DNA of 53,600 nucleotides. Origin: Lachnospiraceae bacterium. Lineage in GTDB: Bacteria > Bacillota > Clostridia > Lachnospirales > Lachnospiraceae. The DNA is taken from the NCBI GenBank assembly GCA_017618195.1, contig JAFZUW010000044.1, positions 1-53,600 of the forward strand. The letters are read 5' to 3'. Below, piece after piece: positions 8,775 to 14,512 of the stretch. Positions within the stretch are counted from its first letter, which is position 1. Each line of letters opens with the position of its first letter. The notes below the pieces were generated by a model that was not told the DNA's origin, searched no databases, and worked only from the letters and a program-made list of their open reading frames with translations. Made by a program: the position numbers and the translations under genes.

Positions 8775-8814
8775 CGGGCCGTGACTCCGTTTCCGGGGCC
8801 ACGGCCCGGTTTTT
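8775..8814 (+). terminator. Intrinsic terminator of pheS-pheT
   Basis: CGGGCCGTG (8775-8783) pairs exactly with 8800-8808, followed by G and five T (8810-8814). Confidence 0.88.
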
Positions 8815-8867: not shown

Positions 8868-9251
8868 TGAGGTGGTTTCCCCAAAATACGGCAGTCTCCA
8901 CCGCAATTTGTGCTTGTTGAAGTATCAGACGGGGCATGAAATGGTTTGTATTCTCAAAAAAGGCGGTGGGTTGCTTGGAATGTTTCGAAAAACACCGCAC
9001 GACTCCGTTTGTTGGACTCTTGGAAAAGGCTTTTTCCGAAAAAACGTGCGGTGGTTATTCTTGTCTTTCTTAGTTTTCACCGTTATTTTGGGGTGGGCTT
9101 ATTTCCGGAGCGCTTGGATTCCAAAAACCATGCGGCGGAATTCCTTGTTCTTCTCCGTTCCCACCGCATTTTTACGGAAGCCGGTTTTTTGGCATGTCGG
9201 GAAATCCGCCATGCACGGCGGATTTCCCGGAATCAGTGAGATTCCACCGCA
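8868..9251. repeat. Array 1: five ~84-bp units with inverted TGCGGTG/CACCGCA motifs
   Basis: Ten motif positions alternate in orientation. Forward motifs start at 8868, 8962, 9047, 9131 and 9214; inverted motifs start at 8899, 8993, 9078, 9162 and 9245. Five are exact, three have one mismatch, one has two and one (9214) has three. The forward-to-inverted distance is always 31 bp, and the step to the next unit 83-85 bp, except one step of 94 bp. Intervening sequence is not conserved, though some spacers hold their own hairpins (for example 9200-9229). The 207-codon frame across this stretch lacks a ribosome site and protein-like composition. The array fills the gap between the pheT terminator and the ileS promoter. 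Confidence 0.8.
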
Positions 9252-9435: not shown

Positions 9436-9465
9436 TTGACATTTTCCATATGCATGGTCTATATT
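9436..9465 (+). promoter_or_regulatory. Promoter of the ileS T-box leader
   Basis: TTGACA (9436-9441), 18-bp spacer, TATATT (9460-9465). Transcription would start near 9472, just before the T-box stem I. Confidence 0.75.
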
Positions 9466-9471
9466 ATCTTG

Positions 9472-9802
9472 CATAGGAGCAACCCCGCGGCGTAAGCATC
9501 GGTGTTGCGATTATAAAAGCAGAGAAAGACGAAGACGGAGACAGTATCCTGTGTGACCGATCCAAAGCGAGCCGGGGGCGGTGAAAGCCCGGTGAGAATG
9601 TGCGCAGGGGAAGATCACTCCCGAGTCGTGTGAGCAAAAGGAAGCAGGGGCGAAGCCGCAAGCCGGCAGAACGTCAACCGAGTAGTCCGCACCGGACCGT
9701 CCGCCGTTATCGGACAACGTATTTCCGCAAGGGCGGCGTACGCAAAAAGGTGGTTATGAGTTATTATGTCCTCATCCTTTTTGGATGGGGATTTTCTTTT
9801 TT
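9472..9802 (+). promoter_or_regulatory. T-box riboswitch, tRNA-Ile type, with unusual antiterminator
   Basis: Stem I is recognisable from GCGAGCCGGGGGCGGTGAAAG (about 9567 on), the conserved distal loop region, and from the specifier ATC (Ile) at 9614-9616 followed by A. The antiterminator departs from the consensus: AAAAAGG (9744-9750), bulge TGGTT (9751-9755) and ATGAG (9756-9760) pair with CTCAT (9771-9775) and CCTTTTT (9776-9782). TGGT still matches the ACCA tRNA end, but the usual ACCGCG half is missing. The competing terminator is TCCTCATCC (9769-9777) with 9783-9791, then a T-rich tract to 9802. It should induce ileS when tRNA-Ile is uncharged. Confidence 0.85.
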
Positions 9803-9860
9803 CAACCATCCGGCGCAGGCGACAACGCGGATCAGGAAGATATAAAAGGAGGGCAAATGT

Positions 9861-13061: not shown

Positions 13062-13150
13062 GAAAATCACTGTTGCTTTTGTACAATTTGAAGTTTGTTT
13101 TTTGTGAAAACAGCAGACTTGTATCCCGATAATTCATGATGTATTCTAAA

Positions 13151-13185
13151 CCCGCGAGGGCATTGCCTCTCGCGGGTTTCTTGCG
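13151..13185 (+). terminator. Intrinsic terminator after ileS
   Basis: CCCGCGAG (13151-13158) pairs with CTCGCGGG (13169-13176); the tract that follows is T-rich but interrupted. Confidence 0.7.
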
Positions 13186-13277
13186 TTTTCTTTTATTCTT
13201 CTTAGCCGGTTCGCCGCTATTTCGGCCGTTATTTCCACTGTTCATCTGAGACTATTCGCTGTAATGCCGGTATGTGT

Positions 13278-13651
13278 TGCGGTGGGAATTCTCTAAATAT
13301 GCCTTTATCACCGTAAAGCTCCCGGTTTGAGACTTGTTTAAAAATCTGTTTTTGGAAATCTGCGGTACGAAGAGAGAAAAGAAGAAAAACCACCGCACAA
13401 TGCTGCCTTCTCTGGCCCGAGAAAAAACGGGCACTCTGAAAAATGCGGTTTGAAAAGAAAGAAACAAAAAGTTTCACCGCACGATTGCTGGAGGGGAATC
13501 TTTTTCGATGGGTCGATTTCACAAGATGTGCGGTGGAACTTACGAATTATACCGCAATTATACCGCAATATTTCCAGAACTGATTCTTTGTGAACTGTTC
13601 TTCCGGGAAATCATGCGGTGAAAAAACCAGAAAACTCATGATACCACCGCA
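13278..13651. repeat. Array 2: five ~84-bp units with inverted TGCGGTG/CACCGCA motifs
   Basis: Same architecture as the array at 8868-9251. Forward motifs start at 13278, 13361, 13444, 13529 and 13614; inverted motifs start at 13309, 13391, 13475, 13561 and 13645. Six are exact and four have one mismatch. Forward-to-inverted distance is 30-32 bp and unit steps are 82-86 bp. A stray extra ACCGCA lies at 13551. Some in-unit spacers are purine-rich on the + strand (13368-13390, 13451-13474). The array begins about 90 bp after the ileS terminator and ends 60 bp before the likely start of the nuclease-like gene. No credible reading frame crosses it. Confidence 0.85.
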
Positions 13652-13710
13652 AAAAGAAAAATCGAACAATTCGTTCAAAAATCATATTGTCTGGAAAGGG
13701 GGATTTTATT

Positions 13711-14512
13711 GTGAGAAGTGAACTGAATTCTGATTTGCAGGAACTGATCAAAGAAGAGAAAAAAACTGTTGAAACGAGTGGAAAGAGGTTTGAGTAAATA
13801 TCCGGCGGGAACATTGGAAATGGGGATGGTTAGAAACAAGTATATCCAATTCCATGTTGTTTCCGTTGAGAAAGGGAAACGAGTCAGAAAATATGTTTCT
13901 CGGAAAAGCAAACTGGTACCCCAACTTGCCCAAAAGTCATATGAACAAAAGCTCAAGCGGGAATTGCTGAAAAGGAAGAAGGTTTTGGAAAAGGCATATG
14001 AAGTCCTCAAGAATACGAGTCCTGCTGCGGTTTATGAGCGGGAATCTCCGGACCGAAAGAAACTGATATCGCCGCTCATCCCAACGGAGGAACAGCTTAT
14101 CGAGCAATGGTATGATGAACATCGCGGTGAGCAAAATACATATCCTATGGGGACTTCATATACGACGATCCGCGGTGAGACAGTTCGCTCTAAATCCGAA
14201 AAAATGATTGCAGATACTTATTATATGGCCGGGATTCCGTATGTTTATGAGCCGTCCCTTATTATGGCGAACGGACATGGGCGGAAGCCTGACTTTGCCG
14301 TTTTTAATGTCAGGCGCAATAAGACATTGTATCATGAACATTTTGGGATGATGGATGATGACGAATATCGCCAGCATGCCATTCTGAAAATGCGTGAGTA
14401 TAACCGTAATGGTTTTATTTCGGGGGATGTGATGATATATACTTTTGAGGGAGAGGGAATTCCGTTTGACCAGGATGAGCTTTCCGGGTTAATCAAAGCG
14501 TATCTGATGTGA
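13711..14512 (+). CDS. PD-(D/E)XK nuclease-like protein, apparent frameshift near the N-terminus
   Basis: The long frame (from a TTG at 13769, 247 codons) has features of a restriction-endonuclease fold: E144 in RSKSE, E161, D175 in RKPDF and E190-H191 in YHEHFGM, where the usual Lys of ExK is His. A basic coiled-coil-like stretch precedes it (residues 50-85). Upstream, a GTG at 13711 with a strong AAAGGGGG site opens a second frame (start VRSELNSDLQELIKEEKK) that runs into seven A at 13759-13765 and stops soon after. Removing one A would join both frames into a continuous N-terminus of the kind seen in this clostridial family. Slippage, a real mutation or a sequencing error could explain it. 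Base composition is A+T-richer than its neighbours. The target is unknown. Confidence 0.7.

Follow-up and report, generated by a model that had tools for sequence, protein, structure and literature searches.

In ParB-parS, MatP-matS and the plasmid iterons, a protein is paired with clustered palindromic or repeated DNA sites on which bridges or higher-order complexes are formed, while in the specificity subunits of type I restriction systems the target-recognition domain is exchanged and the rest of the protein stays. The PDC-S68 proteins, compiled by PADLOC as candidate defence proteins, are presumably of the helicase type; we know of no DNA array associated with them, and no literature naming PDC-S68 was found. 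Clustered inverted pairs in extragenic DNA are a feature of the REP and BIME sequences with their RAYT genes (REPINs), where the chromosomal gene seemingly does not move itself (PMC3116915). The two arrays flanking ileS in the window analyzed here, the whole stretch of 53,600 nucleotides from a Lachnospiraceae bacterium, are one example of an apparently undescribed two-part element of many Lachnospiraceae, which combines the gene of a nuclease-like protein with an array of probable binding-site pairs, phased at whole helical turns and of gene-specific motif. An earlier, sequence-only reading of the same DNA knew of no named element with this layout, and none came to light in Rfam (at gathering scores), Pfam, PHROGs, NCBIfam, PADLOC or the searched literature, most subscription journals lying outside the reach of the latter. 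The arrays, their phasing, their linkage to the gene and the covariation of motif and protein domain were computed directly.

Both arrays are built from inverted pairs with the ideal form TGCGGTGG-N22-CCACCGCA, the palindromic pairs being 37-39 bp long, with an arm offset of 31 bp in most of them and of 30 and 32 bp in two pairs of array 2. The steps between pair starts amount to 94, 85, 84 and 83 bp in array 1 and to 83, 83, 85 and 85 bp in array 2. The coordinates, spacing and counts of phased inverted 7-bp motifs given by the sequence-only reading all hold on recount. The same is true of its tally of half-sites: among the 20 of both arrays, 11 are exact and 7 carry one mismatch, with the remaining 2 off by two or three bases. 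Exact TGCGGTG occurs 15 times in the window (6.3 expected), 11 of these copies residing inside the two arrays. Shuffled DNA of equal composition had been named as the touchstone for the periodicity, and dinucleotide shuffles were run at a loose pair criterion (≤3 mismatches in 14, offset 30-32 bp); each array region holds five pairs, a number reached in 0 of 2000 shuffles of either region, which on average gave 0.043 pairs (maximum 2) for one region and 0.026 (maximum 1) for the other. A chance origin of the arrays is rejected by these shuffles. The rest of the window contains seven more pairs at this criterion, in scattered positions. The features of the locus are compiled in the following table.

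Table. Features around ileS in the window (positions counted from the first letter of the window)
Feature	Position	Strand	Description
Terminator-like stem and T-run	8793..8814	+	3' of pheT, just 5' of array 1; consensus match
Array 1	8868..9251	.	Five inverted 38-bp TGCGGTG/CACCGCA pairs; extra array without adjoining family gene
Pairs of array 1	8868-8905, 8962-8999, 9047-9084, 9131-9168, 9214-9251		
Sigma-70-like promoter	9436..9465	+	3' of array 1, 5' of the ileS leader; 11/12 matches
Terminator-like stem (13 pairs) and T-rich tail	13148..13189	+	3' of ileS, 5' of array 2; consensus match
Array 2	13278..13651	.	Five inverted pairs; cis array, family gene directly 3'
Pairs of array 2	13278-13315, 13361-13397, 13444-13481, 13529-13567, 13614-13651		
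Probable 5' end of family gene	13711..13768	+	GTG at 13711 after purine-rich site 13693-13704; other frame than the rest
Family gene, 247-aa open frame	13769..14512	+	Variable N-terminal domain and C-terminal PD-(D/E)XK-like domain
N-terminal domain, about residues 1-50	13769..13918	+	Proposed motif reader, from covariation with the motif
Nuclease-like domain, about residues 125-247	14141..14509	+	Conserved RSKSE, PDF, EH.G.M; alignment and PADLOC matches

Pfam models identify pheS and pheT in the window, with an N-acetylmuramoyl-L-alanine amidase farther downstream; the name of ileS was taken over from the sequence-only reading and accepted on sequence. Array 1 is placed between a terminator-like site 3' of pheT and a promoter-like site 5' of ileS, both of which are consensus matches only and no commoner than in shuffles: terminator-like sites number 6 in the region against 5.7 in shuffles, and promoter-like sites number 5 against 4.0. 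In a strict scan of 19 genomes, the genome of the window was the only one with an array upstream of ileS. The ileS leader (9490-9860 of the window), which has the look of a T-box leader, is similar to the leaders of the relatives L028-L030 and matched no Rfam family at gathering score.

The sequence-only reading recognized the arrays and suggested a protein bound to them, the former being confirmed and the latter supported, but it missed the likely binding protein encoded beside array 2, as well as the gene-specific nature of the motif. The frames of this gene part at a run of seven A (13759-13765), while the relatives fetched mostly have one open frame across the 5' part and a few show stops or no clear start; the window's copy may reflect a broken gene, an assembly error or frameshifting. 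The conserved residues of the family are RSK.E, PDF and EH.G. In alignments of 28 and 64 sequences the E, the D and the EH are invariant and a K farther on is nearly so, the usual lysine of ExK being absent from its place. PADLOC models of PDC-S68 matched all 28 members and the HEAT_CxxC_PD-DEXK model 26 of them, with residues 121-245 of the window protein aligning to positions 1090-1218 of the 1221 in PDC-S68. Judged from these alignments, the C-terminal domain is PD-(D/E)XK-like and may have nuclease activity. Pfam, NCBIfam, PHROGs and the PDB, searched by sequence, gave no confident family for the gene product; a Pfam scan of 28 members revealed no Y1 (HUH) transposase family, Pfam and NCBIfam no ParB, MatP or initiator family among the same number, and no Cas family was matched. 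No homolog of the N-terminal domain was detected, and a relation to the arm-binding domain of integrases (AP2-like, PF14657) received no profile support, the hhalign probability being 0.1 against three members. No neighbor family that might represent a partner gene recurred in more than 10 of 80 loci, the neighbors being labeled by eye; a gene resembling, again by eye, a SAM-dependent methyltransferase lies nearby in four of the 80 (L112, L124, L138, L159). Carriage by plasmids or phages was rejected: eight plasmid records, for the most part labeled as AAA ATPases or helicases, and seven viral contigs show similarity to the nuclease part only, and no viral contig matched a chain of three arms of this motif (exact matches only). 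One of the three unannotated phage records matched, a 4.2-kb 'Bacteriophage sp.' from human faeces (H9, MT839528.1), aligns in positions 380-907 with residues 76-247 of the window protein at 30.5% and, from this alignment, may be a true relative.

Of the 22 genomes of the genus, 15 contain the family, as do 50 of the 295 sampled from the order; in the other 245 it was not detected. The best 80 loci of at least 569 relatives carry Lachnospiraceae names, among them Butyrivibrio, Pseudobutyrivibrio, Lachnospira, Oribacterium, Acetatifactor and Lachnoclostridium. The de novo search for arrays paired each word with its reverse complement at a fixed distance and linked such pairs into chains of at least three units with a steady period. 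Such chains were found upstream of 80 of 110 genes in the raw loci (6 duplicates and 6 short upstream regions included). Native control segments gave them in 8 of 146 cases and shuffles in 1 of 545; 4 of the 8 control chains resemble true phased arrays near the same genes. When proteins were clustered at 70% identity and at least 450 bp of upstream DNA was demanded, a strict array, usually with a motif of its own, preceded 55 of 76 clusters. The 21 clusters without one include the window's degenerate array 2 as well as L074, L078, L081 and L086, where chains are visible under a looser search, and L061 (56 bp) and L109 (46.5 bp), whose chains resemble other repeats and were kept in the period fit below; several clusters still lack an array after a relaxed scan, and in family f8 only one of five loci with usable upstream DNA has one. 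The end of the cis array lies ≤60 bp from the script-assigned start codon in 29 of 80 chains, and arrays comprise up to 16 pairs (L093). At L131 the array is located downstream of the gene, with 63-bp steps, while L134 and L135 carry arrays of about 52-53 bp on both sides of the gene. Four distinct chains occur in 783 kb of sequence taken from the contig starts of three genus members in which no family gene was detected (G004, G006, G017): G004 has a clear five-unit array with 53-bp steps where a contig ends, G006 has three units at 54 bp, and two further chains have periods of 39 bp and 122-123 bp. The 485 shuffled tiles gave none. In 294 kb of the window's own genome, about six chains have steps divisible by three, as coding-DNA repeats would give. 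The motif is better kept than the spacer in 12 of 14 orthologous array pairs.

The periods of the arrays fall into clusters at 52.6, 62.7, 73.5, 84.8, 94.5, 104.4 and 115 bp (the 56-bp chain being counted with the first of these), with single chains at 42 and 46.5 bp. The periods are best described by a repeat of 10.52 bp (n=76, two non-family repeats among them; R=0.877). With the cluster means as the unit, uniformly drawn periods match the fit in 10 of 5000 draws when the repeat is set to 10.5 bp and in 118 of 5000 when it is fitted. Outside the common 5-turn class, 24 of 25 periods (70% set) lie ≤0.1 turn from a whole number of 10.5-bp turns. The periods of 104-106 and 115 bp cannot simply be read as 10 and 11 turns, as three of the five arrays concerned (L103, L112, L154) resolve into 53 + 62 bp or about 2 x 52.5 bp. 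Of 400 steps, 27 depart by more than 4 bp from the array median, and these show a phase coherence of R=0.694 at 10.5 bp, 15 of them coming from L103 (9), L112 (4) and L154 (2); L103 alternates 53- and 62-bp steps, L092 has 74-bp steps within a 53-bp array, and a few, such as a step of 99.5 bp in L079, do not fit. L084, L155, L061, L109 and duplicates were left out of this step analysis. For each array there is a register in which half-sites lie about 31 bp apart in one of the two possible pairings; this register is unambiguous in 8-turn arrays and favored by the choice itself in those of 5 and 6 turns.

The spacers are unconserved in base identity, as the sequence-only reading had stated, but across 71 family arrays A/T-only steps are phase-locked to the pair center. 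Over the 399 dyads of these arrays, the fraction of A/T-only dinucleotide steps is 0.66 at the dyad and about 0.25 at 4-5 bp away from it, a contrast attained by 0 of 300 circular-shift nulls. Among the periods tried, the AT power is largest at 10.5 bp, above all 300 nulls, with 8.5, 9 and 10 bp also above all of them. Within the inner spacer and immediately beyond the arms, complementarity stays near background (0.24). Taken together, the A/T peak at the dyad and the background complementarity speak for bent DNA more than for a hairpin; given this complementarity and the absence of an Rfam match at gathering scores, neither RNA hairpins nor Rfam families are supported. A protein on one face of the DNA, the choice of the sequence-only reading, is favored by the periods at multiples of 10.5 bp, by deviant steps that are mostly whole turns, and by the background complementarity of the arm spacers.

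The link between motif and protein is best seen at ileS, where the flank was scanned in 19 of 22 genus genomes, all of them drafts, some flanks being cut by contig ends. Nine of the 19 carry the gene, and all nine have an array with steps of 82-86 bp, seven found by the de novo scan (one at a relaxed setting only) and two (G000, G002) by motif. In the ten genomes without the gene the scan yielded no array of 82-86 bp; G019 has one chain of 48 bp and another of 60 bp, a chain in G016 steps by 112-113 bp, and G008 shows array-like inverted motifs by eye that the scan did not score. Next to ileS in G019 (G019:C58:39360-39494), 45 residues of the family gene survive as a remnant with 53% identity. 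The motifs in the nine species with the gene downstream are TGCGGTG (three), TCTGTTG (two), TACTACA, TGCTAC, TCCAATG and TTTCAATG; the comparison with related genomes proposed by the sequence-only reading thus reveals a geometry that other species of the genus keep, with the same motif or a different one. The nuclease domain follows the species tree at ileS, its tree and that of ileS agreeing largely, and the N-terminal tree groups by motif, placing TCCAATG near TTTCAATG and TACTACA with TGCTAC (47 residues, support 50-53, with 29-53 at most nodes). Between G002 and G007, whose motifs differ, the nuclease domain is 90% common and the N-terminal domain 43%. Across 74 arrays (L079, L155 and array 1 dropped, arrays of L060 and L061 set by hand), motif similarity correlates with N-terminal distance at rho -0.196 and with nuclease distance at -0.158, and controlling for the nuclease domain leaves a partial rho of -0.164 (permutation p 0.001), the reverse partial being -0.115; the correlation is modest and array pairs are statistically non-independent. 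The columns most associated with the motif are 43, 40, 73 and 42 (L088 numbering), all within residues 31-80, a segment that holds 8 of the best 20 columns in 48 of the 249 compared, while the nuclease domain holds 8 in 101.

With a probability of roughly 0.7, the protein whose gene adjoins array 2 has the array as its cognate DNA, bound by dimers on the same face that join in a higher-order complex, through which the gene is controlled and the nuclease domain positioned. What goes beyond the computed features, from binding, bending and bridging to self-regulation, nuclease activity and the biological role, we infer along the following lines. One dimer would occupy each 38-bp palindrome, each N-terminal domain reading one half-site of 7-9 bp. 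The two half-sites of a palindrome, three helical turns apart, would be on the same face, with the A/T-rich center presumably bent. As successive palindromes are whole turns apart, the dimers would all face one way and could join in a higher-order complex, whether through bridges between arrays or through a planar curvature of the DNA. The complex probably also controls the gene, considering how close to the start many cis arrays end, and extra arrays such as array 1 may serve as further docking sites. The N-terminal domain and the array appear to switch specificity jointly while the nuclease-like domain stays, as if by cassette exchange.

Extra arrays bring an alternative to the fore. Arrays of the TGCGGTG motif are found at three places in the window's own genome, the third being C78, and recur at several places in G002 and G005, while arrays of TCTGTTGA occupy four places in G005. 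This dispersal would be expected if the gene product, in the manner of REP/RAYT, multiplied and spread the arrays as mobile intergenic repeats, the phasing being needed by the enzyme complex, and the near-identical units inside some arrays, which suggest local duplication, the arrays on both gene sides at L134 and L135 and the inverted duplication that makes up two arrays of G002 point in the same direction. The latter, a recent duplication of about 430 bp (L015, 3721-4154 and 7491-7925), contains, besides the array, another tandem repeat, of about 64 bp, and on a short contig it flanks a gene that by eye resembles a glycoside phosphorylase gene. Such spreading is nevertheless unlikely, as there are few arrays per genome (G001 has its motif at a single place), the three own-genome arrays share only short, weak similarities outside the motif, gene and array are fixed at ileS in nine species, and none of 28 members matched the Y1 transposase family.

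It can further be asked whether the arrays organize the chromosome in the manner of MatP or ParB, bridging distant loci with a nuclease-like domain that is structural only. The same-face phasing would suit bridging, as would the several arrays of some genomes and the position of array 1 between terminator-like and promoter-like sites, but the invariant or nearly invariant residues of catalytic type, the presence of several different motifs in one genome (three in G001, for example) and a family undetected in most sampled genomes of the order make this rather improbable. Not better placed is an operator array for autoregulation alone, where the protein represses its own gene and the extra arrays are decayed relics or decoys. 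It would account for arrays upstream of the gene and near its assigned start, and orphan arrays do resemble relics: TTACTAC-type arrays of about 85-bp period occur in the window's own genome at L253 12284-12495 (G000 C79), adjoining a unit of TACGGTGG type, and at L252 ~8880-9125 (G000 C49), with no family gene in the 20-kb stretches read, and are perhaps left from an earlier specificity. Yet up to 16 pairs exceed the needs of repression, independent operators need no whole-turn spacing over long gaps, and the array of L131 lies downstream of its gene. An RNA element or CRISPR-like guide array, with inverted arms that could pair in RNA and a nuclease-like gene downstream, can be dismissed with near certainty on the background complementarity, the fit of the periods to the pitch of B-DNA (10.5 bp), the lack of an Rfam match at gathering scores and the siting of array 1 between terminator-like and promoter-like sites.

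Returning to the array as the cognate DNA of a nuclease-like protein, the joint switch of N-terminal domain and array with a constant nuclease suggests a role in conflict, as a defence system or a selfish gene, in which the array would be the self scaffold of the nuclease. A conflict role, at a little less than even odds, is favored by the combination of a fixed locus, joint exchange, several motifs per genome and a nuclease domain common to defence candidates. Tentatively, and at somewhat less than even odds, the element may be a new class in which a nuclease with an exchangeable recognition domain and its own phased array is inherited as a cassette, with several motifs per genome, and acts in conflict (defence or selfish maintenance), the array being both self mark and assembly platform. 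If the conflict reading is true, this is a kind of bacterial system that would probably escape repeat and defence finders, because the repeated parts are just 7-9 bp long and the motif varies between loci. An unnamed multi-copy protein family of the Lachnospiraceae, present also in cultured strains such as Pseudobutyrivibrio xylanivorans MZ8 (L128) and P. ruminis CF1b (L096), is hereby tied to a probable DNA target that is recognizable in the sequence itself. Its dozens of natural protein-motif pairs, with periods from 5 to 9 turns, constitute a natural experiment on the use of helical phase, and the family offers a ready set of DNA-binding specificities and a direct route to the function of the gene.

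The comparison with known systems can be drawn as follows. CRISPR arrays have near-identical repeats of 20-50 bp, unrelated spacers and Cas genes, in contrast to arms of 7-9 bp in alternating orientation. With regard to homing endonucleases, genomes without the family gene at ileS exist. The C-terminal nuclease-like domain of all 28 members matches the PDC-S68 models, but the family protein is small and stand-alone and lacks the other 1090 positions. As in the type I specificity subunits, the N-terminal domain appears to be swapped and the rest kept; in contrast to them, the array of sites adjoins the gene, and in the 80 loci with neighbors labeled by eye no methyltransferase recurs beside most family genes. 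ParB-parS, MatP-matS and the iterons differ from the family in that it has a nuclease-like domain, no match to ParB, MatP or initiators, and several protein-array pairs of different motif per genome. With REP/RAYT (PMC3116915), the family shares clustered inverted extragenic pairs tied to a chromosomal gene. In contrast to REP/RAYT, its arrays are phased at whole turns and few per genome, its protein has no Y1 match, its arms of 7-9 bp enclose unpaired spacers instead of forming hairpins, and its motif changes with the N-terminal domain at one and the same locus.
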